Assembly: GCA_003151975.1 (NCBI GenBank)
Contig: PLZD01000002.1
Span: 3,638 to 67,637 of the forward strand
Length of the DNA: 64,000 nt
Reading direction: 5' to 3'
Source of the DNA: Elusimicrobiota bacterium
Lineage (GTDB): Bacteria > Elusimicrobiota > Elusimicrobia > UBA1565 > UBA9628
Shown piece by piece: positions 31,554 to 62,268 of the stretch (the first letter of the stretch is position 1; every line of letters starts with the position of its first letter). Below the pieces are notes generated by a model. The model ran no database searches. It was not told the origin of the DNA and saw only the letters and a program-made list of their open reading frames with translations. Position numbers and translations under genes: made by a program.

Positions 31554-32252
31554 CTAGCGCGTCGGGCCGTCGCCCGAATATTCTTTTTTCTCAACACGGG
31601 GAGCCTGCCTTGCCGGCCCGTTCTTCAGAAGATTCTTCAGGTTGCCGCAGGCATCCTCGTTTCCCAGGCCGCAGGACTTGCGGTACAAAATCTCGGCGCG
31701 CGCCGTGTCCTGTTCGACGCCCACGCCGCGCTCATAGAGGTCGGCGAGGCGGTTGCAGCCGCCCGAGACGACCTCCGTGCGCCAGTGGCGCTTGGTCCGG
31801 CCGGTGGTCGGCTTGGCGCAGGCGCCGCGGAAGAGCTCGGCGGCCTTGGCCGGGTCGGCCGCTACGCCCGTCCCTTCTTCATAGAAGCCGCCAAGGTTGA
31901 CGCACGCGGTGATCTCTTCCCCTTTGCAGGACTTTTCGTAGAGCTTCGCCGCGCCTTCGAAGTCGACTTGGACTCCCTGGCCGTAATGGTAGATCGTGCC
32001 GAGGTCGTAGCAGCCGGTCGCCGAGCCGTGCTTGCAGGACAGCACGAAGATCTTCCTGGCGCGCTCGAAATCCTGCGGGACGTCGACGCCGTTCTGGTAC
32101 ATGTAGCCGATCGTGTTGCAGTCGTTGTCGTCGCCGCTCGAACAGGAAGCCATGTAAGCCTCGGGCGTCTTGTTCCCGAAGGCCGCGGCCGTGGTCGCGG
32201 CGAGCACGAGCGCCCCGAGGCTAAATCTCAGAAAGCGATTCCTCGATCGCAT
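31554..32252 (-). CDS. Sel1-repeat (TPR-like) secreted protein
   Basis: 232 residues from the ATG at 32252. Signal peptide about 1-25, then four or five Sel1-like repeats with Cys pairs (CNTIGYMYQNGVDVPQD, CYDLGTIYHYGQGVQVD, CVNLGGFYEEGTGVAAD, CNRLADLYERGVGVEQD). The regularly spaced cysteines suggest disulfide-locked repeats, as in HcpA-type proteins. The start overlaps the transaminase gene by 32 bases. Likely a protein-protein interaction module. Confidence 0.82.
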   Translation of the reverse strand: MRSRNRFLRFSLGALVLAATTAAAFGNKTPEAYMASCSSGDDNDCNTIGYMYQNGVDVPQDFERARKIFVLSCKHGSATGCYDLGTIYHYGQGVQVDFEGAAKLYEKSCKGEEITACVNLGGFYEEGTGVAADPAKAAELFRGACAKPTTGRTKRHWRTEVVSGGCNRLADLYERGVGVEQDTARAEILYRKSCGLGNEDACGNLKNLLKNGPARQAPRVEKKEYSGDGPTR

Positions 32253-33537
32253 CGGCGGCGAAATCGGCGTCCTTCTTCGTCCAGCACAAAGGCGGCTTGA
32301 TGCGCAGGATGTTGCCGGAAAGCCCGCCCTTGCCGATGAGTAATCCCTTGTCCTTGGTCTTGTCGAGAACCTTGACCGCGATGTCGGAGGCCGGCTCCTG
32401 GCTCTTCTTGTCCTTGACGAGCTCGATGCCGACCATGAGGCCCATGCCGCGGACCTCGCCGACGTGCGGGTTCTTGCTCTCGAGTTTTTTAAGCTTCGCG
32501 ATGAAGTGGGTCCCGACCTCGTGCGTGTTCTCGGCGAGCTTTTCCTTTTCCAACACATCGAGCACGGCGCCGACGGCGGCCATCTGCACGGGCGAGCCGC
32601 CGAAGGTGTTGTAATGGAGCTTGCCTTTCATGGCTTCGCCGATCTCGCGCGTCGTGATCACGCAGCCGACGGGATAGCCGTTGCCGAGGCCCTTGGCCAT
32701 CGTGACGATGTCTGGTTTGACGCGCCACTTTTGAATTCCCAGAAACTCCCGGCCCGTGCGGTAGACGCCGGTCTGCACCTCGTCGGCGATGAACAGGCCT
32801 CCGGCCTTCTTGATGATGTCGTAAGCCCCAGGAAAATACTCGGGCTCCGGAGTGATGACGCCGCCGACGCCGTTGATGGGCTCGGCGTAGAACGCCGCGA
32901 TGCGGCCCGAGGTCGACGTGCGGATGACTTGGTTGAGGTCGTCGAGCGCTTCCTTGTGCTTGTAGCCGCGATAAGTGTAGTTGGCCTTGGCAAACGACAC
33001 GCTCTGGCCGTAGGGCGTGCTGTGGCGCCAGTTGGACTGGCCGGTCAGCGCCATCGCCATCAAGGTTCGGCCGTGGTAGGAATGCTGGAGCGCCACGAAC
33101 TCGTGCGAGCCGGTGTAGTTCTTGGCGATGAGCGCGGCGAGCTCGTTGGCCTCCGAGCCGGAGTTGGTGAAGAAGCACATCTCGAGCATCGGGTTGGCCA
33201 TCTTGACCATCGCGACTAGGCGTTGCGCGAGCAGGCCGAGAGACGGATGCAGGTAGAGGGAGGTCGTGTGGAAGTATTCGTCCATCTGCTCCTTGATTTT
33301 CTTGAGCCAGTGCGGATGGCTGTGGCCGATGGAGACCGTCGCCACGCCGGCGAACCCGTCGAGGTACTTCTTGCCCTTCTCATCGAAGACGAATTGGCCG
33401 CGGCCGCGCACGATCTGGATGGGCTTGGCGTACATCGGCCCCGGCAGGGGTAGAACGTGCTTCTCGCGCAAGGCCGCGACGGCCTCGGTCGAGTCCGGGG
33501 AAATCACATCTTGATCAAGCACCGCTGACTTTTTCAT
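32221..33537 (-). CDS. Class III aminotransferase, beta-alanine / AGXT2-like
   Basis: 438 residues. FAGVATVSIGHSHPHWL, FFTNSGSEANELAALIAK, HSYHGRTLMAMALTG, IADEVQTGVYRTGREFLG and PLP lysine TMAKGLGNGYPVG are closest to alanine-glyoxylate aminotransferase 2 and 3-aminoisobutyrate-pyruvate transaminases. These take the end products of reductive pyrimidine degradation, beta-alanine and beta-aminoisobutyrate, to (methyl)malonate semialdehyde, which fits the neighbouring genes. The start overlaps the membrane-protein gene. Confidence 0.82.
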   Translation of the reverse strand: MKKSAVLDQDVISPDSTEAVAALREKHVLPLPGPMYAKPIQIVRGRGQFVFDEKGKKYLDGFAGVATVSIGHSHPHWLKKIKEQMDEYFHTTSLYLHPSLGLLAQRLVAMVKMANPMLEMCFFTNSGSEANELAALIAKNYTGSHEFVALQHSYHGRTLMAMALTGQSNWRHSTPYGQSVSFAKANYTYRGYKHKEALDDLNQVIRTSTSGRIAAFYAEPINGVGGVITPEPEYFPGAYDIIKKAGGLFIADEVQTGVYRTGREFLGIQKWRVKPDIVTMAKGLGNGYPVGCVITTREIGEAMKGKLHYNTFGGSPVQMAAVGAVLDVLEKEKLAENTHEVGTHFIAKLKKLESKNPHVGEVRGMGLMVGIELVKDKKSQEPASDIAVKVLDKTKDKGLLIGKGGLSGNILRIKPPLCWTKKDADFAADAIEESLSEI

Positions 33538-34189
33538 TGTTTCTCCTTACAACGATCCAGATTCCAAGTCCGAGGCCCGCGCCGGTGAACATCCCGTCGA
33601 GCAGGGCCGAAAGCTGGGGAAGAAATTCCGTGGGGCGCCATGACCAGGCGTCGAGCTGGGGATCGGCCTTCTGCACGAGCGTGAGCAGCAGGTACGCCGC
33701 AAACGCCCCGCCTATCGCGCCTAGCGCGCCGAGCTTGCGCCCCGAAACCGCGCGCCCAAGCCAAGCCACCGTGCCCCAGACGGCCGCCGCGTAGACGGCG
33801 ACGACCGCGGCGTACCAGGGGTTTTGCAGGAAGCGCCAAATGCCGCCTGAATACTCAATGTCGGCGCCCCAGCCCATGCGCGCCGTGCGCTCGAGCACGA
33901 AGAGCGGCAGCATGATCGTCAGCGTGGGCAGGGCCAGACCGGCCAGCGCGGCCTTCCAGCGGCGCGAGAGCGCGGCCGCGATGGTGCCGTACAAAACGCC
34001 GATGAAAAGCGCGATGTCGAAGAACGGCGGGCCCCACTTGCCCTGGAGCGCCTGGCTTCCCGCGCCCAGGCGATGCGCGAGGCTGACCGCGCATTGGGCC
34101 AGCACCGCGCCGCCAAGGCCTCCCGCTCCGCCGCCGAAGAGCGCCGCGAGCGCGGTCAAGTTAGTAGAGGTTCGACTGCCGGCGCTCAC
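33515..34189 (-). CDS. Multi-pass membrane protein of unknown function
   Basis: 224 residues with about six hydrophobic helices and a Gly/Ala-rich N-terminus (LFGGGAGGLGGAVLA). No family recognised. It overlaps the aldehyde dehydrogenase stop (29 bases) upstream and the transaminase start (23 bases) downstream, so it is embedded in the same operon; a transport or regulatory role linked to amine/semialdehyde metabolism is only a guess. Confidence 0.6.
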   Translation of the reverse strand: MSAGSRTSTNLTALAALFGGGAGGLGGAVLAQCAVSLAHRLGAGSQALQGKWGPPFFDIALFIGVLYGTIAAALSRRWKAALAGLALPTLTIMLPLFVLERTARMGWGADIEYSGGIWRFLQNPWYAAVVAVYAAAVWGTVAWLGRAVSGRKLGALGAIGGAFAAYLLLTLVQKADPQLDAWSWRPTEFLPQLSALLDGMFTGAGLGLGIWIVVRRNNEKVSGA

Positions 34190-35687
34190 CCGTGTAGTCC
34201 AGGAACACCGTCTTGAGCTCCGTGAAGAAGTGCAGGCCTTCCTTCGACATCTCGCGGTCGCCGACGCCCGAGCCCTTCACTCCGCCGAAGGGCACCTGGG
34301 CCTCGCCGCCGATGGTCGGGCTGTTGACGTGGACCATGCCCGCCTCGATGCGGTCGACGAAGTTCATGACGTTGGTGAGGTCCTGCCCGTAGAAAGCGCA
34401 GGTCAGGCCGAACTCGCAGGCGTTGGCAAGCTCGATCATCTCGTCGAAGGTCTTGACCCGGGTCACGGCGAGCACCGGCCCGAACACCTCTTCCTTGAAC
34501 AGGCGCGAACTGGGCTTGACGTTGTCGAAGATCGTCGCCTCGACGAAGAAGCCGTACTGCAAATCGCCGGTCGTGACGCGCTTGCCGCCGAGCACGAGCT
34601 TGGCGCCCTCCTTCTTGGCGATCTCGATGTACTCCAAGTCCGTGTCCATCTGATCCTGGTCAACGGCGGGGCCCATGCCGACGCTGGAATCCAGACCGTC
34701 GCCCAGCTTGAGCTTCTTGGCCTCGTCGACGACCATCTTGAGGAACTTGTCGGCGATCTTCTCGTGAAGGATCAGCCGCGAGGTGGCCGTGCAGCGCTGG
34801 CCGGTGGAGCCGAAGGCGCCTTTCATGATGCCGCCAAGAGCGAGGTTGAGGTCGGCGTCTTCCCAGACCACGCCGGGGTTCTTGCCGCCCATCTCGCAGG
34901 TGGCCTTGATGCCGCGCGTTCCGCAGATCGTGTGGACGCGCTTGCCGACGGAGTTGGAGCCAGTGAACGAGACCGCGCGGATGGCCTCATGCTCGACGAG
35001 CGTGTCCCCGATCAGCGAGCCGGCGCCGAGAATTAGATTCAAGACGCCGGGAGGCAGGCCGGCCTCCTCGAAGATCTCGACGATCTTGACGGCCAGCGCG
35101 GGAACCAAGGAGGCGGGCTTGAAGACGACGGTGTTGCCCGCGACCAAGGCGGGCGAGAGCTTCCAGACCGGGATCGCGAACGGGAAGTTCCAAGGCGTGA
35201 TGATCGAGACGACGCCGAGCGGCTGGCGCACGGTGTAGAGAAGATTCTTGGAGAGCTCGGAGGGCATCGAGACGCCGCCCAGGCGCATGCCTTCGCCCGC
35301 GAACCACTCCATCAAGGTGATGCCTTTGTCCATTTCGCCCTTGGCCTCGGAGAGAATCTTGCCTTCCTCCCGGGTCATGAGGGCTGCGAGCTCGTCGCGG
35401 CGTTCGCGGCAGATCTGCGCGGCCTTGGCGAGTATGCGGCCGCGGGCGGGAGGCGTGGTGGCTTTCCAGCTCGGGAAGGCCTTCTTGGCTGCTTCGATGG
35501 CGGCCAAGGCTTGAGCCTTGTCGGCCGACTTGAACTTAGCGAGGACCTCGCGGCTATCCGCGGGGTTCGTGGAGATGACGACGCGGTCGGAGACGCCCTC
35601 GATCCATTTGCCTCCGATGTACTGCTTCAAATTGGCGGGGGCGACGGGGGTCTTCTTCTGGGAAGCGGGCTTGGTCAAGGTGGCCAT
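34161..35687 (-). CDS. Aldehyde dehydrogenase (semialdehyde type)
   Basis: 508 residues. Catalytic Cys in STGQRCTATSR, Glu in CEMGGKNPG, ITPWNFPFA block. The sequence is nearer to 2-oxoglutarate-semialdehyde/succinate-semialdehyde type enzymes than to CoA-dependent MmsA. By context it could oxidise malonate or methylmalonate semialdehyde made by the adjacent transaminase, or succinate semialdehyde made by GabT. It has its own promoter and an AGGAG ribosome site 8 bases from the ATG. Confidence 0.83.
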   Translation of the reverse strand: MATLTKPASQKKTPVAPANLKQYIGGKWIEGVSDRVVISTNPADSREVLAKFKSADKAQALAAIEAAKKAFPSWKATTPPARGRILAKAAQICRERRDELAALMTREEGKILSEAKGEMDKGITLMEWFAGEGMRLGGVSMPSELSKNLLYTVRQPLGVVSIITPWNFPFAIPVWKLSPALVAGNTVVFKPASLVPALAVKIVEIFEEAGLPPGVLNLILGAGSLIGDTLVEHEAIRAVSFTGSNSVGKRVHTICGTRGIKATCEMGGKNPGVVWEDADLNLALGGIMKGAFGSTGQRCTATSRLILHEKIADKFLKMVVDEAKKLKLGDGLDSSVGMGPAVDQDQMDTDLEYIEIAKKEGAKLVLGGKRVTTGDLQYGFFVEATIFDNVKPSSRLFKEEVFGPVLAVTRVKTFDEMIELANACEFGLTCAFYGQDLTNVMNFVDRIEAGMVHVNSPTIGGEAQVPFGGVKGSGVGDREMSKEGLHFFTELKTVFLDYTGERRQSNLY

Positions 35688-35752: not shown

Positions 35753-37105
35753 CTATTGGCCGCCGAGCCACTGGGGCTCCTGGTTCGCGTTGAAATCGCG
35801 GCGAGCGGCCTTGGAGACCTCGGGCTTCAGATAATCGAACGCGGCGCGCCAGTCTCCCGGGTGCTCCTTGAGGCCCCGCAGAAAATAATAGGTGAAGAGG
35901 CCGTGGCCTTTGTCCTTGTAGGTGTTGCTGACCTCGTCGCTCTTGGCGGCCGCCAGCACGGTGATGTTCGCGGGGATGTTCGTCTGCTTGACGGTTACCA
36001 GCGGCCTGGCCCCCGCGGCGATGACCGAGCGGCCGCCCGCACCCGAGAAGCATGAGTCGAGCGCGACGGTGATCTTTGAAGCCGGGAGCTTGGACAGCGC
36101 TTCGTACATGCGCTGCAGCGGGAAGGCGGTCTTGGCCAGGTACATGGGGTCCCCATCGTAAGGGACCAGGTAGGAATCTCCCGTCGAGGGATTGGGCGCG
36201 CCGTGGCCGGAGAAATAGACGAACACCTCGTCGCCGGGCCCAACGCGCGAGGGCAGCCAGCTCTCAAAATACTTCTCGAAGTCGCTTTTGCCGGCCTGGC
36301 CGTCGGTCAGCAGCGCAATCTCCGCTTCGGGATAGCCCGCCGCGCGGTTGAGATACTTCGCGACCAGCCGAGCGTCGGCGGCCGCGAAGCTCGCCGAGGG
36401 AAGCTTCGCGCGGTAGTTCTCGATGCCGATGACGATCGCGTGCCCTTTGCGCGGCGCCGCCGCTTCGGGCAGCTCGTCGACGTCCGAGAGGCGGAAGGCG
36501 TTGGCGGCGACGGCCTGGCCAGTGCGGGCGAATTCCTTGAGCTTTTCCGACGAGAAAAGAGCGCCCTCGAAATTGTAGAGCGCCTCGTCGACGGCCGACG
36601 CCATGTTGCGCGGCGTCCACAGCCTGCCGCTGCCCTTGGACATGGGGTTCCAGAACGAGTTGGTCTTGCTGCTGTAGCCCCAGTTCTCGCCGGCGACGGA
36701 GTCGATCTGCTTCTCGTCAAGAGTGAGAAAGGTCGCGCGCAGGGAAATGTCGACCGTGGCCCGCGCGCACGAGAGCACCGTGCGGTCGTCCATGATCGCG
36801 ATGAGGTCGGCTTGGGCGGCGCGCCCGGCCTCGGGGGAGTCGACGCTGATGACCTTCCGGAAGGCCATCTCGAGCTTCTTCATCGATTCGTCGAACCAAG
36901 CGCGCGGGGCGTAGATTCCCCCGTAGCACATCATCGAGGTCGCAGCGCGGGCATTGTCCCGCATCTTCTGGGTCTGGATGAGCGCCAAAGTCAGCTTCTT
37001 ATATAACGGGCGGGAGACGTCGACATTCGCGTAAGGGTCCGGCGGCTTCGTGAGCGTCGCGCAAGCGCAGAAGATTGCGATGAGCGGCAGTAGACCAATT
37101 CTCAT
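35753..37105 (-). CDS. Caspase-like (peptidase C14) lipoprotein
   Basis: 450 residues. Signal with lipobox-like FCAC (Cys15), a 190-residue N-terminal helical domain of unknown type, then a caspase fold from AIVIGIENY (about 223) with YFSGHGA (His301) and DSCFSGAGG (Cys352). No ankyrin repeats, unlike its neighbour. Its ATG directly abuts the stop codon of the ankyrin-caspase gene, so the two are translated together behind dihydropyrimidinase. Target unknown; the dyad is intact. Confidence 0.86.
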   Translation of the reverse strand: MRIGLLPLIAIFCACATLTKPPDPYANVDVSRPLYKKLTLALIQTQKMRDNARAATSMMCYGGIYAPRAWFDESMKKLEMAFRKVISVDSPEAGRAAQADLIAIMDDRTVLSCARATVDISLRATFLTLDEKQIDSVAGENWGYSSKTNSFWNPMSKGSGRLWTPRNMASAVDEALYNFEGALFSSEKLKEFARTGQAVAANAFRLSDVDELPEAAAPRKGHAIVIGIENYRAKLPSASFAAADARLVAKYLNRAAGYPEAEIALLTDGQAGKSDFEKYFESWLPSRVGPGDEVFVYFSGHGAPNPSTGDSYLVPYDGDPMYLAKTAFPLQRMYEALSKLPASKITVALDSCFSGAGGRSVIAAGARPLVTVKQTNIPANITVLAAAKSDEVSNTYKDKGHGLFTYYFLRGLKEHPGDWRAAFDYLKPEVSKAARRDFNANQEPQWLGGQ

Positions 37106-38374
37106 TTAGAACCTCTGGTCGGCGCCCGCGAAAGTCGGCGTTTGTTCCCGATTCTGGCGGCGCGCCTCGTCCTCGACCTTCGGCTTCAGGAAATCGAAGA
37201 GTTCCCGTGAGCCCGTCTTGCCTTGGTCGAGTCCCTTCAGAAAATAGTAGGTGAACAGACCGTGGCCCTGGTCGTCAAGCGTGCCGGTGATCTCATCTCC
37301 GGAGGCGGCGGCGAGCACCGTCAGGTTGTTGGAGGCCGGCAGGTCCTGCTCGACCTTCGTCACGAGCGGTCGGGCGCCTTTAGCGAGCACGGAGCGGCCG
37401 CCCGCGCCCGAGAAGCAGGCGTCCAGCACGACCACGATGTTTTTGGCCTTGATCTTGGCGAGGTTCGCGTAAAGCTGCTTGAGCGAATAGGATGAGGTTT
37501 TAAGGAACTTCGGGTCGCCGTCCCATGGTACGAGGTAGGCGTCGCCGGTCTTCGGATCGGGAGCGCCGTGCCCAGAGTAATAAACGAACAAGGTGGAGTC
37601 TTCTTTGACGTTGAGCGGCAGCCATTCTTCGATGTAGCTCTGCAGCTTGCTCTTCGTCGCGGTCTGGCCTTCGAGCGAGACGATGTTGCGCGCGGGCACG
37701 CCGAGGGCCTCCAGGTGCTTGCGCACGGCCTGCGCGTCGCGGGCTCCGAAGTCCGCCTTTGGCAGGCTTTGATAATCTTCGATGCCGATGACCAAAGCGA
37801 AGTCGTCGGGGCGATCCGCTCCGCTCCGCGTCGGCTCGTCGACGTCGGAGAAGATCGCCTTCGCGGCCTGAGCGCGGGATGACTCCAGCATGCGCTTCAT
37901 CGCGTCCGGGTCGAGATTGCCGGGCTGGCGCGGAGCTCCGTTCTTGAGACGCTCGAGCTGCCGGGGCTTCTCGGCCTCGAAGTAGGCGAGGACCTCGGGA
38001 TGCTTTTTGGCGACCCACCGGGCTGCGGTCATCTCGCGCTCGCCGATAAGCGCCCCATGCTCGACCAGGTACTTCGCCATGTCGAGCCGTCCGTTGTAGG
38101 CGCAGTAGAACAGCGGGCTGTCGACGAAGAAGCGTCCGTTGAGCCGGGCGCCCTTGGACACTAGATATTTGAGGGAATCGAACTTGCCGTTGTCGCAGGC
38201 GTAGCAAGCCGGCTCGATGTTGGGCGAGAAAAAGGACTTATTGATGTCCTCGCTAGCCAGAGCGCTCTCGATGCCCGCGATATCCTCGTGCTTGATCGCG
38301 GTTTGCAGCGAGCCCGCGCAGCCGGTGAGGATAGCTAGTGATGCCAGCGCCAGGACGGCGGAAAGGCGGCTCAT
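37106..38374 (-). CDS. Ankyrin-repeat / caspase-like lipoprotein
   Basis: 422 residues from the ATG at 38374; the frame continues upstream but that region codes for dihydropyrimidinase in another frame. Signal and lipobox LTGC (Cys19), two or three ankyrin-type repeats (about 22-130), a linker, and a caspase domain from FALVIGIEDY (192) with YYSGHGA (His269) and DACFSGAGG (Cys320). The TGATG overlap with the dihydropyrimidinase stop implies translational coupling. Very similar in its peptidase domain to the protein at 3937-5475, so a recent duplication is likely. Confidence 0.88.
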   Translation of the reverse strand: MSRLSAVLALASLAILTGCAGSLQTAIKHEDIAGIESALASEDINKSFFSPNIEPACYACDNGKFDSLKYLVSKGARLNGRFFVDSPLFYCAYNGRLDMAKYLVEHGALIGEREMTAARWVAKKHPEVLAYFEAEKPRQLERLKNGAPRQPGNLDPDAMKRMLESSRAQAAKAIFSDVDEPTRSGADRPDDFALVIGIEDYQSLPKADFGARDAQAVRKHLEALGVPARNIVSLEGQTATKSKLQSYIEEWLPLNVKEDSTLFVYYSGHGAPDPKTGDAYLVPWDGDPKFLKTSSYSLKQLYANLAKIKAKNIVVVLDACFSGAGGRSVLAKGARPLVTKVEQDLPASNNLTVLAAASGDEITGTLDDQGHGLFTYYFLKGLDQGKTGSRELFDFLKPKVEDEARRQNREQTPTFAGADQRF

Positions 38375-39771
38375 CAGTTGAAGTTGCGCGGCGGCCGTCT
38401 GAGGAACTGGCCGTGGCCCTTGGAGCCGACGAACTTGTCGTGATCGACCATGTGCTTGCCGCGGATGAACACGTGCGCGATCGAGCCGTCGACCGTTTTC
38501 CCTTCGTAAGGATTGTAGTCGGCCGCGGTGTGCTGGTTCTTGATCGAGATCGTGTGCTTCTTCTTCGGGTTGATGAGGACGATGTCGGCGTCGCCGCCCG
38601 GCGAGAGATGTCCTTTGCGCGGATAGAGGCCGAACAGTTTGGCCGGAGTGGTGGAAGTGATCTCGACGAACCGGTTGGCCGTGATCTTGCCCTTCGAAAC
38701 CGCATCCCAAAGAAGAAGCAGTCGGGTTTCAACACCGGGCGCGCCATTAGGGATCTTCGCGAAGCTTTCTTTGCCGAGCTCCTTGCCGATCTTCGTTTTG
38801 GTCGCCTTCATGCAGAACGAGCAGTGGTCGGTTGAGACGACCTGCAAGTCGTTGCGCACGAGGCCCTTCCAGAGCCGCTCCTCGTTGCCCTTGGGGCGCA
38901 GAGGCGGGCTCATGACGAACTTGGCGCCCTCAAAACCGGGCCGCTCGTAGTCCTCGTAAGAAAGATAGAGATACTGCGGGCAGGTCTCGGCGAAGACCGG
39001 TTGGCCGCGCTCGCGCGCGCGCCGGACCTCGTCCAGCGCGTCGCCGGCGGAGAGATGCACGAAATAGATCGGCGTGCCCGCCATCTCGGCCAGCGCGATC
39101 GCGCGGCGCGTGGCCTCGGCCTCGGCCGACATCGGCCGGGTCAGGGCGTGGTACTTGGGCTCGATCTGGCCAGCGGCGATGGCCTTCTGCACGAGCACAT
39201 CGATGACGCCGCCGTTCTCGGCGTGCATGCAGATCATCCCGCCGTTTTCCTTGGTGCGCGAAAGCGCCCGGAAAATCGTCGCGTCGTCCGACATAAAGAT
39301 GCCTGGGTAGGCCATGAAGAGCTTGAAGGAGGCCACGCCCTCCTTGATCATGTCGTCCATTTCCTTGACGCGCTTCTCGGGCAGGTCGACGATAATCATG
39401 TGGAAGGCGTAGTCGACGACGGACTTGCCCTCGGCCTTCCCGTGCCAAGTGTCGAGCGCGCCTTTGAGCGACTCTCCCCGCTTCTGGATCGCGAAGTCGA
39501 TGACCGAGGTCGTGCCGCCGAACACCGCGCCGGCTGATCCTGTTTGAAAGTCATCGGCGGTGGTCGCGCCCATGAAGGGCATATCGAAATGGGTGTGAAC
39601 ATCTATACCGCCTGGAACGGCGATGAGACCGCGCGCGTCGACGACCTTGGCGTCGCCGGCGTCGATCTGGCCCACGGCGGCGATCTTGCCTTTGGAGATC
39701 GCGAGGTCGGCGACGAACGAGTCGGACGCCGTGACGAGGTTTGCGCCCTTGATGACGAGATCGTAGGCCAT
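38374..39771 (-). CDS. Dihydropyrimidinase (D-hydantoinase family)
   Basis: 465-residue cyclic amidohydrolase that opens dihydrouracil/dihydrothymine to N-carbamoyl-beta-amino acids. All metal ligands are visible: H59 and H61 (DVHTHFD), carbamylated Lys150 (SFKLFMAYPG), H183, H239 and Asp315 (STDHCSF). Second step of the reductive pathway, between PreAT and beta-ureidopropionase. Start 1 base from the NCS1 permease stop; its own stop overlaps the start of the caspase gene. Confidence 0.93.
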   Translation of the reverse strand: MAYDLVIKGANLVTASDSFVADLAISKGKIAAVGQIDAGDAKVVDARGLIAVPGGIDVHTHFDMPFMGATTADDFQTGSAGAVFGGTTSVIDFAIQKRGESLKGALDTWHGKAEGKSVVDYAFHMIIVDLPEKRVKEMDDMIKEGVASFKLFMAYPGIFMSDDATIFRALSRTKENGGMICMHAENGGVIDVLVQKAIAAGQIEPKYHALTRPMSAEAEATRRAIALAEMAGTPIYFVHLSAGDALDEVRRARERGQPVFAETCPQYLYLSYEDYERPGFEGAKFVMSPPLRPKGNEERLWKGLVRNDLQVVSTDHCSFCMKATKTKIGKELGKESFAKIPNGAPGVETRLLLLWDAVSKGKITANRFVEITSTTPAKLFGLYPRKGHLSPGGDADIVLINPKKKHTISIKNQHTAADYNPYEGKTVDGSIAHVFIRGKHMVDHDKFVGSKGHGQFLRRPPRNFN

Positions 39772-39772
39772 G

Positions 39773-41257
39773 TTATTTCTCCTTGATGGAAGACATCAAT
39801 AGACGGTAAACGGCAAATGAGATGCCGAAGCTGATGAACCATGCGTAATTGTAGATCGTGATCCAGAACGAGGCGACCTGGACGGCGCCGATCGTGCCGA
39901 GGAAGCCCGGCGCGAGAGGAATGATGCCCAGCACGAGAGCGATGAGCGCGCGCGGATTGAATCCGTTGCCGTACCAATATCTGCCTTTGCGCTCGTAGAG
40001 CTCGCCGATGTTCAGTTCGCAATGCCGGATGAAGAAATAATCGCAGATCAGCACGCCGCCGATGGATCCCAGCAGAGAAGAGTAGGCCACCAGCCACTTG
40101 AAGATGTAGCCCGACGGATCGGAGAGAAGCTTCCACGGCTGCATCAGGATGCCGATGACGCCGGTGATGTAGCCGCCCATGCGGAAGTCGATTTTCTTGG
40201 GCCAGAGGTGCGCGATGTCGTTTGCGGGGCTCACGACATTGGCCGCGATGTTGGTCGCGAGCGTGGCGATGCACAGCGAGATCATCGCGATTGCGAGTAT
40301 TAGGGGATTGCTGAACTTTGTGAGCAATTCGATAGGATCCCAAATGCTTTTCCCGTAGATCACCACCGTCGCCGAGGTCACGGCCACGCCGATGAACGAG
40401 AACAAGCCCATCGTCGTCGGCAGGCCGAGCGCTTGGCCGAGGATCTGATCCTTCTGCGACTTCGAGTAGCGCGTGAAATCAGGGATGTTGAGCGAGAGCG
40501 TAGCCCAGAAGCCGATCATGCCGGTCAGCGCCGGAAAGAAAAAACCCCAGAAGTGCCCGGCCTTGGGCTGGCCCGGGTCGAAGGCGGAGGGCGTCGCGAG
40601 CATCGCGCCGAAGCCGTGGGCCTCTTTGTAGGCCCAGGCGAGCAGCGCGAGTCCCAGCGCGATCAGCAGCGGCGCCTTGATGTTGAGCAGAAACCGGATC
40701 GACTCCACGCCCTTGTAGATCACGAACATGTTGATCGCCCAGAAGAACATGAAGCAGGCAAGTTGTGGCATACTGATCCCGATCGCCGTGGCTTGTGCTT
40801 CCTTCATGCCGGGGAACCAGATCGCGAGCAGCGTGAAGATCGCGTTGCCGCCGATCCAGGCTTGAATACCGAACCAGCCGCACGCCACGAGCGCGCGCAG
40901 CAGCGCCGGGACATTCGCGCCGAGAATCCCGAACGCGGGCCGGCAGTAGACCGGGAACGGAATGCCGTACTTCGTCCCGGCGTGCGCATTCATGACCATC
41001 GGGATAAGCACGATGCAGTTGCCGAGGAAAATGGTCAGCACGGCCTGCCACCAATTCATCCCCTCGGCGATCAGCGAAGAGGCCAGCATGTAGGTCGGCA
41101 CGCACGCGCACATGCTGATCCAGAGGACCATGATGTCCTTCTGGGCCCAGGTGCGCTCGCTCTTTTTCGTCGGAGCGATGTCGTGATTCCAGTACGGAGA
41201 ATGCGACAGGTCCCCGGTATGCTCGCGGATCTCGGAGTCGAAGAGAGACTCGATCAT
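39773..41257 (-). CDS. NCS1-family nucleobase/hydantoin permease
   Basis: 494 residues, about 12 transmembrane helices. GTKYGIPFPVYCRPAFGI and ACGWFGIQAWIGG are NCS1 signatures; the second carries the Trp and Gln that stack on and hydrogen-bond hydantoin in Mhp1. Genomic context favours uracil, thymine or dihydropyrimidine as substrate. Expressed with dihydropyrimidinase directly downstream. The second tRNA-like/antisense locus begins 18 bases upstream of its ATG on the opposite strand. Confidence 0.9.
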   Translation of the reverse strand: MIESLFDSEIREHTGDLSHSPYWNHDIAPTKKSERTWAQKDIMVLWISMCACVPTYMLASSLIAEGMNWWQAVLTIFLGNCIVLIPMVMNAHAGTKYGIPFPVYCRPAFGILGANVPALLRALVACGWFGIQAWIGGNAIFTLLAIWFPGMKEAQATAIGISMPQLACFMFFWAINMFVIYKGVESIRFLLNIKAPLLIALGLALLAWAYKEAHGFGAMLATPSAFDPGQPKAGHFWGFFFPALTGMIGFWATLSLNIPDFTRYSKSQKDQILGQALGLPTTMGLFSFIGVAVTSATVVIYGKSIWDPIELLTKFSNPLILAIAMISLCIATLATNIAANVVSPANDIAHLWPKKIDFRMGGYITGVIGILMQPWKLLSDPSGYIFKWLVAYSSLLGSIGGVLICDYFFIRHCELNIGELYERKGRYWYGNGFNPRALIALVLGIIPLAPGFLGTIGAVQVASFWITIYNYAWFISFGISFAVYRLLMSSIKEK

Positions 41258-41513: not shown

Positions 41514-42389
41514 TCACGGAAGCTGTTGGACGAGCTCCCCGTAGGTCTCGGGCCGGCGGTCGCGGAAGAACTGCCAGACCTTGCGGACCTCGAGGATCTC
41601 GTCGAAGTCGAGGTCGGCGGTGATGATCGCGTCCTTGTCGCGCGGGCCCACGGCGAGCATCTGGCCGCGCGGGTCGCAGAAGTAGGACTGGCCGTAGAAC
41701 TCGCCGATGTTCCAGGGCTTCTCGCGGCCGACGCGGTTGATGGCGCCGACGAAGTATTGGTTGGCGACCGCGTGCGCGGGCTGCTCGAGCTTCCAGAGGT
41801 ACTCCGAAAGGCCGGCGACGGTCGCGGACGGATTGAATACGATCTCCGCTCCATTGAGTCCGAGTATGCGCGCGCCGTCGGGGAAGTGCCGGTCGTAGCA
41901 GATGTAGACGCCGACCTTGCCGTACCTGGTCTGGAACACGGGATAGCCCTTGTTGCCCGGCTTGAAGTAGAACTTCTCCCAAAATCCCGGAGCGCAGTGC
42001 GGGATGTGGTTCTTGCGGTAGGTGCCCGCGATCGAGCCGTCGGCGTCGATGACGACGGCGGTGTTGTAGTAAGTGCCGGTCGACGGCGTCTCGTAGATCG
42101 GGACCACGATGACCATCTTGTATTTCTTGGCGAGCTTCTGCATCAAGACGGTGGTCGGGCCGGGGACGGGCTCGGCCGTGTCGTACCACTTGTCGTCCTG
42201 TTCGGCGCAGAAATAAGGCCCGTAGAAGATCTCCTGCATGCAAAGCATCTGCACGCCTTTCTTGCCGGCCTGCTCGATCAAGGGGATGTGCTTGTCGATC
42301 ATCTTCTTCTTGATTTCTTTGAGCGTGTACTTCGGGGTGGACCAGTCGCAGGACGTTTGGATCAGGCCGGCGCGGACGATTCGTGACAT
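41514..42389 (-). CDS. Beta-ureidopropionase / N-carbamoyl amide hydrolase
   Basis: 291-residue nitrilase-superfamily hydrolase from the ATG at 42389 (frame open upstream, but that is other coding sequence). The catalytic triad is visible: Glu53 (MQEIFYGP), Lys126 (YRKNHIPH), Cys164 (YICYDRHFP). Releases beta-alanine or beta-aminoisobutyrate, CO2 and ammonia from N-carbamoyl-beta-amino acids, the third step of the pathway. N-carbamoylputrescine amidase is a close relative and an alternative. Downstream of preTA and the DUF6624-like gene. Confidence 0.88.
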   Translation of the reverse strand: MSRIVRAGLIQTSCDWSTPKYTLKEIKKKMIDKHIPLIEQAGKKGVQMLCMQEIFYGPYFCAEQDDKWYDTAEPVPGPTTVLMQKLAKKYKMVIVVPIYETPSTGTYYNTAVVIDADGSIAGTYRKNHIPHCAPGFWEKFYFKPGNKGYPVFQTRYGKVGVYICYDRHFPDGARILGLNGAEIVFNPSATVAGLSEYLWKLEQPAHAVANQYFVGAINRVGREKPWNIGEFYGQSYFCDPRGQMLAVGPRDKDAIITADLDFDEILEVRKVWQFFRDRRPETYGELVQQLP

Positions 42390-42400
42390 GGGAGACCTCT

Positions 42401-42904
42401 CTAACCTTTCGCTTGGATTTTTCCGTTGAGCTGCGCGAGCCTCTCGGCGATCGGCGGCACGTTGAAGAACTTCTTCTCGAAGCTCAACAGCGTCGTGTCC
42501 TCGATCGGCAGGCGCAGCTGGTACTTGTTCTCGTCGGGATTGTGCTCGAACTGCGTGCCGTAGGTCTGCGCGAGACCCGCAGCCATCAAAAAGCGGTCGA
42601 GGCTGGCGCAGGCCAGCCAGCGCGAGGGCGTGTGCCCCTTGATCGAGGCGATCATGGCGAGCCGGTGAGCCGTCAAAAAGTCTTTCTGAGAGGAACCGTG
42701 CAGGTGGATGACGGATGCGTGATAGAGGTCCTGGGGCGTGTTGACCTCGCCGCGGCTCATCATCTCTTGGACCGTGCGGCGGCGCTGGGCATCGCGCTCG
42801 CGCAGAGTTTCGACGGCGTCCGGCGTGCTGTAGACGCGCTGGCGGTCCTGTTGGTCGGTCTCGTAGAGCTCTTGGAGCTTGAGATTGTCGGTTTCGGGAG
42901 GCAT
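42401..42904 (-). CDS. DUF6624-like protein
   Basis: 167 residues, soluble, no signal peptide. Pattern: an N-terminal DQQDRQRV region, DLYHASVIHLHGSSQKDFLTAHRLA, then RWLACASLDRFLMAAGLAQTYGTQFE, which matches what I know of DUF6624-type proteins (helical, often found as accessory genes). Biochemical role unknown. It lies between preA and the beta-ureidopropionase gene with gaps of 3 and 11 bases, so it is cotranscribed with the pyrimidine pathway. Confidence 0.6.
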   Translation of the reverse strand: MPPETDNLKLQELYETDQQDRQRVYSTPDAVETLRERDAQRRRTVQEMMSRGEVNTPQDLYHASVIHLHGSSQKDFLTAHRLAMIASIKGHTPSRWLACASLDRFLMAAGLAQTYGTQFEHNPDENKYQLRLPIEDTTLLSFEKKFFNVPPIAERLAQLNGKIQAKG

Positions 42905-42907
42905 GGT

Positions 42908-44215
42908 CTATCCGTGCATCCGCTTGTAGACTTCTTTGTAGCCCGAGAATCCGTTCTTGGTGTACTCTTCCCACGTCAGCGGCTTGTGGCCGGTCTTGAC
43001 CTCGGTCATCGTGATGCAGCCGTCGACGGGGCAGACCAAGGAGCAGAGATTGCAGCCGACGCAGTCTTCCTCGATAACGACAGGTTTGCGGTTGCCGTTT
43101 TTCTTGCGGTCGATCGTGATGCACTGGTGCGCGGTGTCGTTGCAGGCGACGAAGCAGAGGTCGCAGCCGATGCATTTGTCGTGGTCGATCTTGGCGACCG
43201 TCTTATGATGCAGATTCAGCTTCTTCCAATCGACGATGTCGGGAGCGGTTTTGCCGATGAAATCGTCGAGCGTCTCGAAGCCCTGCTTCTCCATCCAATC
43301 CTCGAGGCCGGCATTGAGCTCCTCGACGATCCGAAAGCCGTAATGCATGACCGCCGTGCAAAGCTGAACCGAGGAAGAGCCGAGCAGCATGAACTCGACG
43401 GCGTCCGCCCAAGTCGAGATGCCGCCGATGCCGGAGATCGGCAGACCCTTGGTTTCCGGGTCCGTCGAGATTTGAGAGACCATGTTGAGCGCAATGGGCT
43501 TGACCGCGGGGCCGCAGTAGCCGCCGTGCGAGATTTTCCCGCCGACCGCGAATTTGGGCTTCATCGTGTCGAGGTCGACGCCCATGATCGAGTTGATCGT
43601 GTTGATGAGCGCCACGCCGTCGGCGCCGCCCGCTTTGGCCGCGCGCGCGGCGTAGCGCACGTCGGTGATGTTGGGCGTGAGCTTGACGAGAACCGGGATC
43701 GTCGACTTTTCTTTTACAAACTCCGTGACCATCTTGATGTACTCGGGCACCTGTCCTACGGCGGCGCCCATGCCGCGCTCGCTCATCCCGTGCGGGCAGC
43801 CGAAGTTGAGCTCGAAGCCGTCGGCGCCGGTGTCGAGACAGCGCTTGACGATGTCGTGCCAAGACTTGCGCTCGCAGGGGACCATCAAGGAGATCACGAC
43901 CGCGTGCTTCGGGAAGCGCTTCTTGACCTCGGTGATCTCGCGCAGATTGTCTTCCAACGGGCGATCGGTGATCAGCTCGATGTTGTTGAACCCGGCGATC
44001 TTCTGGCCGCCGATGTCGATGGCTCCGTAACGACTAGTTTGATTGATCACCGGGGGGTCCTGGCCGAGCGTTTTCCAGACCGCTCCCCCCCAGCCGTACT
44101 CGAAGGCGCGCATGACCTGCTCGCCGGAATTGGCGGGCGGCGCCGAGGCGAGCCAAAAAGGGTTGGGCGACTTGATGCCCGCGCAGTTGGCGGCGAGATT
44201 AGGCTTCTTACCCAT
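42908..44215 (-). CDS. preA: NAD-dependent dihydropyrimidine dehydrogenase, PreA subunit
   Basis: 435 residues from the ATG at 44215, overlapping the preT stop by 8 bases. FMN-binding TIM barrel with the catalytic Cys in NFGCPHGMSERGMGAAVGQ, and two C-terminal 4Fe-4S ferredoxin clusters (CIGCDLCFVAC, CVGCNLCSLVCP). With PreT it reduces uracil and thymine to the 5,6-dihydro forms, the first step of the reductive pathway, or runs in reverse. The Fe-S and catalytic residues are intact. Confidence 0.93.
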   Translation of the reverse strand: MGKKPNLAANCAGIKSPNPFWLASAPPANSGEQVMRAFEYGWGGAVWKTLGQDPPVINQTSRYGAIDIGGQKIAGFNNIELITDRPLEDNLREITEVKKRFPKHAVVISLMVPCERKSWHDIVKRCLDTGADGFELNFGCPHGMSERGMGAAVGQVPEYIKMVTEFVKEKSTIPVLVKLTPNITDVRYAARAAKAGGADGVALINTINSIMGVDLDTMKPKFAVGGKISHGGYCGPAVKPIALNMVSQISTDPETKGLPISGIGGISTWADAVEFMLLGSSSVQLCTAVMHYGFRIVEELNAGLEDWMEKQGFETLDDFIGKTAPDIVDWKKLNLHHKTVAKIDHDKCIGCDLCFVACNDTAHQCITIDRKKNGNRKPVVIEEDCVGCNLCSLVCPVDGCITMTEVKTGHKPLTWEEYTKNGFSGYKEVYKRMHG

Positions 44216-45626
44216 GAGCTGCTCGCTCCGACGGAAGCTTGGGCATGATCGGCGCGACCTTGCGGCCATCGATCGTCGAGATCCAGTAATCGTTGCCTTC
44301 CGGCGCGGGCACGCCCGGCTGCAGGGCGTTGTGAATGGCCCAGGCGGCGCGCTTGCCGTCGGCGGCCGCGTTGACGACTTCCTTGCCGCCGTTGATCGCG
44401 TCGCCGCCCGCGAACACTTTCGGGTGGGTGGTGCGCAATGTCTCTGCCTCAACCTTGATGCGTCCGTCGGAGGCCAGCGCGAGCCCGAATCCCTTGGCCA
44501 GCGCGAAGTGCTTGGTCTGACCGATCGCCTTGATGACGCGATCGCACTCGATCGTGAAATTCTGGCCCTTGAGGACGGAGAGTTTGCCGCCGACGACCTT
44601 GGTCCGCGCGAACTCGATTCCTTCAACTTTGGTTTTGCCGATGACGCGCACGGGAGCGGCGTTCCAGAGAAATTCCGCCCCGTCCGTCTGGGCGAGTTCG
44701 TACTCGAAGCCATACGCGCCCATGTCGGCTTCGGAACGACGGTACGCCATGATGACGCGTTTGGCGCCCGTCCTCTTGGACTGGGTCACGGCGTCGATCG
44801 AGGTGTTGCCGGCGCCGATCACGACCGTGGTCTCGCTCTTGCCAAGCGGCCCGAGGTCGCGCTCCTTGACGTAGCGAATGAACGAGAGGGCGTCCCAAAC
44901 GCCGCGGAGTCCTTCTCCTGGAATCTCCAATTTGTGCGTCTCGCCGAGGCCGATGCCGACGAAGACCGCGGCAAAATCCTTCAGCAGCTTCTCGACGGAG
45001 ACATCCTTGCCGATCTCGACGCCCATGCGCACGTCGATGCCGAGCTTGAACAGTCGCTTGAACTCGTCGAGCGACACCTTCTGGGTCATCTTGTACTCGG
45101 CGATGCCGAAAGTGTTGAGTCCTCCGGGGACCGAGTCATGCTTCTCGAATATCGTGACGGCATAGCCCAACCGCCGCAAATAAGAGGCGCAGGAGACGCC
45201 GGCCGGTCCGCCGCCGATCACGGCGACGCGCAGGCCGTTGTCGGGGGCGGCCCTGAAGGGTTGGGTCCCGGTCTCGTTGAGATGATCGGTCGCCCTGCGC
45301 TGTAGGCGCGCGATGTCGATGGGCTTTTCCTGCCAGTCGTGGTAGACGCAGGCGCCCTCGCAGAGGACTTCGACGGGACAGGCGCGGGCGCAGGAATGGC
45401 CCAGCGCGTTGGCCTCAAGGATCGTCTTGGCCGAGCCGGTCAGGTTGTTCGAGGCAATCTGCTTGATGAAGCGTGGGATGTCGATGTGCGTCGGACAGGC
45501 CTTGATGCAGGGCGCGTCGTAGCAATAGAGGCAGCGGTGAGCCTCGATGACGGCCTCTTCGGGGCGCAGCGCCGGCTTGATCTCGGCGAAGTTTTCCTGG
45601 AAGATCTTCTTGGTCGTGGAATCCAT
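44208..45626 (-). CDS. preT: Dihydropyrimidine dehydrogenase, PreT subunit
   Basis: 472 residues, GltD-like. N-terminal Fe-S cysteines (CLYCYDAPCIKACP, CARACPVEVLCEGAC), FAD motif VIGGGPAGVSCASYL, NAD(P) motif VVIGAGNTSIDA, and a C-terminal FAD block (VFAGGDAINGG). Passes electrons from NAD(P)H to PreA. First gene of the pyrimidine operon, with its own promoter. Confidence 0.93.
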   Translation of the reverse strand: MDSTTKKIFQENFAEIKPALRPEEAVIEAHRCLYCYDAPCIKACPTHIDIPRFIKQIASNNLTGSAKTILEANALGHSCARACPVEVLCEGACVYHDWQEKPIDIARLQRRATDHLNETGTQPFRAAPDNGLRVAVIGGGPAGVSCASYLRRLGYAVTIFEKHDSVPGGLNTFGIAEYKMTQKVSLDEFKRLFKLGIDVRMGVEIGKDVSVEKLLKDFAAVFVGIGLGETHKLEIPGEGLRGVWDALSFIRYVKERDLGPLGKSETTVVIGAGNTSIDAVTQSKRTGAKRVIMAYRRSEADMGAYGFEYELAQTDGAEFLWNAAPVRVIGKTKVEGIEFARTKVVGGKLSVLKGQNFTIECDRVIKAIGQTKHFALAKGFGLALASDGRIKVEAETLRTTHPKVFAGGDAINGGKEVVNAAADGKRAAWAIHNALQPGVPAPEGNDYWISTIDGRKVAPIMPKLPSERAAHG

Positions 45627-61488: not shown

Positions 61489-62268
61489 TCAGCGTTTCTG
61501 CGCGCGAACGCGGCGGATCGCCGCCGAGGCCGCCTCATGCAGGTCGGCGTCGTCCAGCGCGGCCGACAGCGCCGGCAGCGCGTCGGCGGCGGTCGGCCCC
61601 ATCAGCCCCAGGACTTTGATCGCGACCAAGCGGATGTCCTTGCCTTTTAGACGCGGGTCCAGATCGTCCACGACGCCGTCGCCGCCGGCCGCGCGAGCGA
61701 GTTCGGTGACGGCCGGCGCTCCCGCCTTGAGCACCGCGGCCGCCGCGCGGGCCTGGCCCTTCTTGTCCCCCTCTCTCGTGAAGCGGAAGAGATCGTAGAC
61801 CAGACGGTGCGCCGGAGACGCCGCGGCGCCGGTGGGAGCCGCGAACGCGATCAGCGCGCCTTGATCGATCAAGGCGGCCGAGTCCTTGTGGCCGCGCTCG
61901 CGGGCCAGGAACGCGGCGGTCTTGTCGTTCCAGGTGACGAGTTCCGGGTCCGCCCTCCGGATGAGCAGAAGGCGCACGCAGTCGTTGCGGCCCGACATGG
62001 CCGCCAGCATCAAAGGCGTGTAGCCGTCGCGGTCCTTGGAGTTGACGTCGCAGCCGCCGTCGAGCAGGGCCGCGATCGCCTCGACCTTATTTCGCGCGGC
62101 GGCCTCCCGCAGCGCCGCGCCGCAATGACGGCGGTCTCCGGGCAACAGCGAGCGGATGGCGTCGGCGCGTCCTTGCTTGGCCGCATCGACGAGGGCCGAT
62201 GAGCACGCGGAGAGAACCAGGGGCGCCGCCACGAGAAGGATTGAGATTTTTGGCGCGGAATTGCGCAT
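61489..62268 (-). CDS. Ankyrin / HEAT-repeat lipoprotein
   Basis: 259 residues. Signal with lipobox LSAC (Cys22), ankyrin repeats (about 24-135: GGCDVNSKDRDGYTPLMLAAMSGRND, RRADPELVTWNDKTAAFLA, read in parts), then a HEAT-like C-terminal segment (LVAIKVLGLMGPTAADALPALSAAL). The N-terminal half resembles that of the ankyrin-caspase lipoproteins, but no peptidase domain follows. Probably a periplasmic protein-binding module. Confidence 0.78.
   Translation of the reverse strand: MRNSAPKISILLVAAPLVLSACSSALVDAAKQGRADAIRSLLPGDRRHCGAALREAAARNKVEAIAALLDGGCDVNSKDRDGYTPLMLAAMSGRNDCVRLLLIRRADPELVTWNDKTAAFLARERGHKDSAALIDQGALIAFAAPTGAAASPAHRLVYDLFRFTREGDKKGQARAAAAVLKAGAPAVTELARAAGGDGVVDDLDPRLKGKDIRLVAIKVLGLMGPTAADALPALSAALDDADLHEAASAAIRRVRAQKR

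Follow-up and report, generated by a model that had tools for sequence, protein, structure and literature searches.

Why do genes for caspase-like peptidases stand in the middle of an operon for pyrimidine breakdown? The question is raised by a 64,000-nucleotide stretch of an Elusimicrobiota bacterium (assembly GCA_003151975.1, contig PLZD01000002.1, positions 3,638 to 67,637; the whole stretch is called the window), in which the dihydropyrimidinase gene is directly followed by two genes, P0001 and P0002, each coding for a protein with a caspase (Peptidase_C14) domain. To our knowledge, little is settled about the roles of bacterial caspase relatives except in cyanobacteria and in a few defence systems. 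In related genomes the position of P0001 is occupied by caspases repeatedly, a second fixed site exists in a microcompartment operon, and the N-terminal parts of these proteins are replaced while the peptidase domain is kept. The proteins are best read, with a probability of about one half, as metacaspase-like peptidases that are anchored to the envelope, carry exchangeable recognition modules and are expressed together with the genes of nucleic-acid catabolism.

Gene junctions

The stop TGA of dihydropyrimidinase and the start ATG of P0001 have one base in common (AACTGATGAGC), and the ATG of P0002 lies immediately 3' of the TAA stop of P0001 (TTCTAAATGAGA). A preliminary description of the locus had reported both junctions, and its coordinates proved correct. 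Upstream of P0001 a clear Shine-Dalgarno sequence was not obvious; translational coupling fits this absence, and translation of P0001 may depend on reinitiation from dihydropyrimidinase. The same description had taken coupling as special evidence of coordinate synthesis. It is not special, since about a quarter of the genes read in this genome touch or overlap their upstream neighbour: a gap of zero or less to the co-directional upstream gene was counted for 58 of 233 other genes and for 4 of 28 caspases. Tight spacing was rejected as a sign of function, the background being equally tight, and because touching or overlapping genes are ordinary here the TGATG overlap is unable to carry a functional argument. 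What goes beyond chance is the repeated use of the slot after dihydropyrimidinase, not the tightness of the junction.

The slot after dihydropyrimidinase in related genomes

The position directly after dihydropyrimidinase, the slot, was readable in 32 related genomes, counting the window genome (G000, genus g1). G047 and G031 were left out because their contigs end there, as were all other genomes, whose dihydropyrimidinases are more distant. Ten of the 32 have a caspase in the slot, namely G000 and nine genomes of genus g9 (G014, G019, G041, G043, G045, G048, G062, G064, G065). Several of them carry two tandem copies, and the caspases always stand before aldehyde dehydrogenase where this gene is visible. 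Caspase-free slots outside g9 are those of G002, G003, G004, G006, G007, G009, G012, G015, G020, G022, G023, G025, G026, G028, G033 and G052, and the fetched flanks of 51 dihydropyrimidinase loci from other phyla contained no caspase.

Of the ten best P0001 relatives (at least 390 bits) among the matches listed for 56 genomes from the order, nine occupy the slot and one is in G046. The peptidase domains of P0001 and of seven g9 slot caspases form one clade (bootstrap 100, SH-aLRT 98). P0002 was considered as a further member of the conserved arrangement and was rejected by the tree, in which it groups most closely with two tandem caspases encoded on contig C53 of the same genome; it is evidently a local recruit. 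Conservation of the gene order in relatives, proposed earlier as a check, thus holds for P0001 in genera g1 and g9 and does not extend to P0002. The situation that was to indicate chance adjacency, the pathway present and the caspases elsewhere, is found in most relatives outside the two genera and not in all.

Single slots deserve mention in their own right. An outer-membrane beta-barrel-like insert lies in the slot of G007 (L198 7534-8409) and a reverse-strand HNH/DUF222-like reading frame in that of G058 (L201 4580-5515), both identified by eye. In G062 (L047, CP096137.1, the one complete chromosome) frame breaks are present in slot caspase 1 and in several pathway genes; because the latter are broken as well, the breaks resemble sequencing errors rather than pseudogenes.

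A second site in the SPU microcompartment operon

Three further caspases of the window genome are encoded outside the window, on contig C30, in a microcompartment operon whose Pfam identities (TIM, PduL, EutN, AldDH, BMC, RpiB and DeoC) match the SPU gene set. This set is tied by Axen et al. (2014, PMC4207490) to deoxyribose 5-phosphate degradation, with DNA catabolism predicted. DeoC, RpiB, TIM, AldDH, PduL and the shell genes are common to the published SPU operon and to those found here; a word search of that paper returns no caspase, and a peptidase of unclear role appears there for another type, GRM3.

The SPU gene order is nearly constant across the order, and caspases are confined to two gaps flanking rpiB, where they mostly overlap both neighbours by 4 nucleotides (nt). 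At least one of these gaps was readable in 42 genomes (rpiB of G065 is off the contig and the operon of G041 is split over two contigs). Caspases were found there in 15 (G000, G010, G016, G019, G031, G041, G043, G045, G048, G057, G058, G061, G062, G065 and G066), which span the genera g1, g9, g11 and g14 of two families. In a second tree, from which four sequences including the two longest branches of the first had been dropped beforehand, 19 of 20 SPU-slot peptidase domains fell into one clade (SH-aLRT 99) together with some non-slot members, and P0002 lies inside this clade. The sequence L209_1912, labelled BMC in that tree, is outside the SPU slot and is excluded from the SPU counts.

The preference for these two sites is also seen when all neighbours are compared. 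PF00656 was matched 27 times in the window genome and 0-17 times in 36 relatives, among the matches listed. For 163 caspases of 26 genomes, the co-directional neighbours within 100 nt were clustered into families; seven of the genomes had been taken for a known caspase at the SPU or dihydropyrimidinase loci and were read there alone. Caspases have RpiB as a neighbour in 12 genomes of 3 genera, EutN in 11 genomes of 4 genera, dihydropyrimidinase in 9 genomes of 2 genera and BMC-T in 6 genomes, and every other family in at most 3. The next families, with three genomes each, are a ferredoxin (by eye; g3 and g9) and a lipoprotein-like protein (g11 and g12). In 14 more widely sampled genomes, part of whose caspases were read, the SPU operon was the neighbour in 8, dihydropyrimidinase in 7 and any other family in at most 3. 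The gene caller was home-made and some of its starts are wrong; for example, G000 has three caspases in SPU slots, and two of them came out too short.

Replacement of the N-terminal module

The family combines a conserved C-terminal peptidase domain with an N-terminal module, which may be ankyrin, PDZ-Sel1 or one of at least two unnamed types. Five slot caspases (G043 copy 1, G045 copy 1, G014, G065 copy 1 and G064 copy 2) have peptidase domains with 86-96% identity, and the N-terminal parts of the same proteins are 20-35% identical, with one exception of 53%. One such pair is copy 1 of G043 and G045. Here the synonymous divergence (dS) is 0.35 for dihydropyrimidinase and 0.36 for the peptidase domain, which is 94% identical, and the N-terminal parts are 27% identical. 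DNA identity drops to 44-67% in the interval between the dihydropyrimidinase end and the domain border, and recovers beyond it. The ratio of nonsynonymous to synonymous divergence (dN/dS) in the peptidase domain is 0.09, that is, purifying selection. Since dS is unreliable for N-termini at 25-35% identity, the argument for a swap consists of unalignable N-termini between clock-like flanks. Misassembly as its source would take a double join error. The module is replaced between species whose dihydropyrimidinases are 91-97% identical; comparisons with the dihydropyrimidinase of G065 were out of frame and were excluded. By these comparisons, the catalytic domain of the slot evidently descends like its neighbours, and it is the N-terminal domain that has been swapped from one close species to the next.

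Modules also cross subfamily borders. The G014 slot protein has an N-terminus related to one that the window genome has in a different subfamily (37% identity, E 2e-29), the peptidase domains of this pair being 48% identical. A PDZ-Sel1 module is common to the SPU slot-1 proteins of G000, G043, G045, G048 and G057. The peptidase domain joined to it in G000 belongs to another subfamily, the slot-1 peptidase of G062 has a different N-terminus, and in G007 the PDZ-Sel1 protein stands alone, without a caspase domain (L236 7126-8133). Among pairs with peptidase domains at least 80% identical, the N-termini were unalignable or at most 31% identical in 11 of 14 slot pairs and in 2 of 9 others; one of the latter two has a truncated start call in the table, and its full N-termini differ by eye. 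With 2 of 9 non-slot pairs also diverging, the proposal that replacement is peculiar to the dihydropyrimidinase slot was not clean and was dropped. Elsewhere in the window, an ankyrin lipoprotein-like protein without a caspase domain (61489-62268, reverse strand) resembles the P0001-type N-terminal module.

Predicted properties of P0001 and P0002

In P0001, Pfam assigns Ank_2 to residues 26-110 and Peptidase_C14 (PF00656) to residues 192-416 (63 bits, cut-off 21.4). P0002 matches Peptidase_C14 with 62 bits against the same cut-off, and the Pfam search gave no ankyrin match in it. Both proteins retain the SGHG and D(A/S)CFSG motifs, and the earlier statement that the catalytic His/Cys pairs are intact was borne out by domain alignment: His269 of P0001 is shared by all 78 of the caspase domains aligned, and Cys320 by 77 of the 78. 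The sole exception, a change of Cys to Ser, is in another genome, in the second caspase of a tandem pair (G014:C52, L179 6090-7625). The orthologous pair on contig C46 of the window genome has an intact Cys. The N-terminus of P0001 is lipobox-like, with the sequence LTGC/AG, as judged by eye and by regular expression.

The AlphaFold model of P0001, the one protein of the pair that was modelled (9 aligned sequences, mean pLDDT 76.1), has a caspase fold. Residues ~186-422 align to MALT1 paracaspase and to Arabidopsis metacaspase 4 with Z 21.3. The alignment reaches the C-terminal residue, 422; this bears on the presence of a p10 part, which orthocaspases lack. Asp213 aligns with the conserved metacaspase Asp, Asp318 lies two residues before Cys, and both are kept in at least 77 of the 78 domains. 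Acidic S1 pockets are described for TbMCA2 and MALT1 in the portion of PMC4357240 used here, and the two aspartates are placed like the acidic residues of those pockets. Because two S1-type aspartates are so widely kept, Arg or Lys is predicted at P1, and peptidases of the P0001 family would cleave after these residues.

Proposed role and its alternatives

Based on these findings, the P0001/P0002 family is postulated to consist of envelope-exported, mostly lipid-anchored peptidases of metacaspase/paracaspase fold, expanded in this Elusimicrobiota order, certain subfamilies of which are kept at fixed sites after dihydropyrimidinase and beside rpiB in the SPU-type operon. The peptidases would be made while the cell degrades nucleic acids and would act on the periplasmic side, probably cutting after Arg or Lys, and the N-terminal module would set the trigger or the substrate. 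The result would be regulated envelope proteolysis that accompanies nucleic-acid scavenging, without action on cytoplasmic enzymes. Direct action on those enzymes is improbable because the apparent export signals would place the peptidases outside the cytoplasm. As the conserved sites lie in both the base arm and the sugar arm and the subfamilies are operon-specific, the function would be tied to nucleic-acid catabolism more widely than to pyrimidines. Activity, substrate and trigger are all predictions from the sequences.

Several observations weigh against this proposal. The dihydropyrimidinase slot lacks a caspase in 22 of 32 genomes, six of them of g9 itself (G008, G038, G057, G058, G061 and G066), and the SPU slots lack one in 27 of 42. 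Caspases in the former slot are found in two genera alone, with nine of the ten cases from g9, so that independent events are few. Other proteins occur in the slot, namely the beta-barrel-like protein of G007 and, in G061 and G066, lipoproteins of PDZ-like type (by eye), and most of the 27 caspases of the window genome have no neighbours shared with relatives. The N-terminus of P0002 (..IFCAC/ATL.., by eye and regular expression) is a less canonical lipobox, and most slot-1 SPU caspases have an apparent plain Sec-type signal instead of a lipobox (by eye). In the trees of dihydropyrimidinase, permease, aldehyde dehydrogenase and aminotransferase, the window groups with caspase-free genera, and a sliding-identity comparison of the window's dihydropyrimidinase showed no 3'-terminal stretch resembling g9. 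The trees and the sliding identity rule against one ancestral dihydropyrimidinase-caspase unit moving together; given the grouping of the enzymes, the slot caspase must have been lost repeatedly, or acquired or transferred separately. A tblastn search of the empty slots of close relatives gave no convincing caspase remnant (best E 0.02).

Chance adjacency in this one genome deserves almost no credence for P0001, although it is true for P0002 and for many other caspases: the same slot is used in a second genus, and about 0.05 of the 14 better-sampled genomes would be expected to have a caspase behind any one named gene (a Poisson figure that ignores shared ancestry and gives the scale only), against the 7 observed. 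Neutral hitchhiking is the main alternative, a possible, if doubtful, explanation. A large mobile family of secreted proteins would insert in permissive gaps of well-expressed operons and then be inherited with no functional tie, as the many copies with unshared neighbours, the other secreted proteins in the slots, a spacing no tighter than that of other genes and the few independent genera would suggest. It is weakened because the caspases choose particular gaps, being found in 2 of about 12 SPU gaps alone, and it does not readily account for operon-specific peptidase subfamilies, for purifying selection or for the location of both preferred operons in the same pathway area.

The preliminary description had favoured direct control of the pathway, the peptidases either acting on pathway or transport proteins at the envelope or responding to pyrimidine status; in the former case they would trim or remove the NCS1 permease or another protein of the pathway. 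The conserved co-orientation and the apparent reinitiation at TGATG are compatible with this, and among the pathway proteins periplasmic loops are expected in the permease alone. The pathway is nevertheless intact in the many genomes with a caspase-free slot, the same family stands even more often in the deoxyribose-phosphate microcompartment operon, the enzymes are expected to be cytoplasmic, and the module is replaced between species with nearly the same dihydropyrimidinase; a pyrimidine-specific role is not upheld and direct control is highly improbable. A role in danger sensing or defence is unlikely but less so. Cells that feed on the nucleic acids of dead neighbours would co-express envelope caspases, whose changing modules would recognise hostile or foreign proteins and whose cleavage would defend or kill the cell. 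Replacement of modules between close species beside a constant peptidase is what recognition under changing selection would produce, and SPU operons are predicted for DNA catabolism in the cited passages of PMC4207490. On the other side, PADLOC gave a partial match to its generic caspase model PDLC02987 alone, no defence gene was noticed beside the caspases, and no killing or immunity partner was found. Envelope peptidases co-expressed with nucleic-acid catabolism remain the preferred reading.

The surrounding operon and other caspase loci

The coordinates of the genes are collected in Table 1. From PreT to the aminotransferase all genes have one direction, with gaps of at most 65 nt except for 256 nt before the permease; the order is PreT, PreA, the 167-aa (amino acid) protein, carbon-nitrogen hydrolase, NCS1 permease, dihydropyrimidinase, the caspases, aldehyde dehydrogenase, membrane protein and aminotransferase. 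The set corresponds to reductive pyrimidine breakdown and, probably, further use of its product downstream. It matches the enzymes of the known reductive cluster (PreTA, dihydropyrimidinase, beta-ureidopropionase), with NCS1 permease, aldehyde dehydrogenase and aminotransferase, and differs from it in the caspase genes between dihydropyrimidinase and aldehyde dehydrogenase. Between these two genes the coding strand showed no site resembling a promoter; the single terminator-like site there is located inside the P0002 gene, regional counts of such sites being at shuffle level.

Table 1. Positions of the genes and junctions in the window, and of named SPU-slot loci outside it
Feature	Position	Strand	Basis or remark
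PreT-like dihydropyrimidine dehydrogenase subunit	44208-45626	-	Fer4_20/Pyr_redox domains and context
PreA, dihydropyrimidine dehydrogenase subunit	42908-44215	-	NF006183 668, cut-off 335
Conserved 167-aa cluster protein	42401-42904	-	no NCBIfam name found
Carbon-nitrogen hydrolase, beta-ureidopropionase by context	41514-42389	-	best NCBIfam N-carbamoylputrescine amidase, below cut-off
NCS1-type nucleobase permease	39773-41257	-	PF02133; 1 nt upstream of dihydropyrimidinase
Dihydropyrimidinase	38374-39771	-	TIGR02033 589.6 bits, cut-off 393.25
TGATG, dihydropyrimidinase stop overlapping P0001 start	38372-38376	-	
P0001, caspase 1	37106-38374	-	ankyrin N-terminus, C-terminal Peptidase_C14, His269/Cys320
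TAA-ATG junction P0001/P0002	37103-37108	-	AGAGG 5' of P0002 start
P0002, caspase 2	35753-37105	-	N-terminal part without Pfam match; peptidase subfamily otherwise mostly in microcompartment operon
Aldehyde dehydrogenase closing the slot	34161-35687	-	65 nt after P0002
Conserved cluster membrane protein	33515-34189	-	no Pfam match
Class III aminotransferase of cluster	32221-33537	-	
Third caspase-domain protein	3937-5217	-	ankyrin-like N-terminus; outside this operon
SPU-slot loci	G000:C30 (L151 5205-10996), G043:C50 (L213), G031:C113 (L211)		

Two other neighbourhoods were noticed. In two genera the gene behind a cytochrome b / peroxiredoxin-like / ferredoxin cluster codes for a caspase (L177 in G014 and L188 in G002, names by eye), again with differing N-termini. 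In genus g12 a caspase lies directly after the ornithine carbamoyltransferase gene (by eye) in G042 (L194 4992-6452) and in G046.

Relation to known caspase systems

Metacaspases and orthocaspases (C14, PF00656) share with the present family the caspase fold, the His-Cys dyad, the acidic S1 residues, extra N-terminal domains and a frequent location in operons. According to the accessible part of a survey of prokaryotic metacaspases (PMC3501461), 46.6% lie in predicted operons and none was recorded in Elusimicrobia; that part describes neither a fixed slot in nucleoside-catabolic operons nor module replacement at a slot. MALT1 paracaspase and plant metacaspase 4, the structures that the modelled peptidase domain of P0001 matches best, are eukaryotic, 16-19% identical to P0001 in those alignments, and have other partner domains. 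The nearest named bacterial models are the EACC1-associated caspase NF047832, matched by P0001 and P0002 with 81.1 and 74.6 bits (below the cut-off of 140), and the PADLOC 'caspase' model; the neighbours of P0001 and P0002 are pathway genes. Searches of open-licence full texts gave no relevant paper pairing dihydropyrimidinase with metacaspase, Elusimicrobiota with peptidase C14 or microcompartment with metacaspase; for Elusimicrobia and caspase, the apparently relevant papers among those listed were the 2012 metacaspase survey and a polymorphic-toxin survey. That prokaryotic metacaspases occur in operons is known, and the present case is a variant with fixed slots in nucleoside-catabolic operons and with module replacement.

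Significance

The genomic address of these caspases is both repeated and specific, with two fixed sites in two arms of nucleoside breakdown. In a bolder form, rather improbable as a whole, the family would be an envelope 'caspase' system wired to the nucleic acids of dead cells, with a constant executioner domain and fast-replaced recognition modules, in which nucleic-acid debris would serve as a danger or feeding signal once base and deoxyribose catabolism are switched on. The natural module swaps would separate cutting from recognition, so that the function of a caspase in a DNA-eating cell becomes testable, and the swapped N-termini may be used for finding the partners that they recognise.

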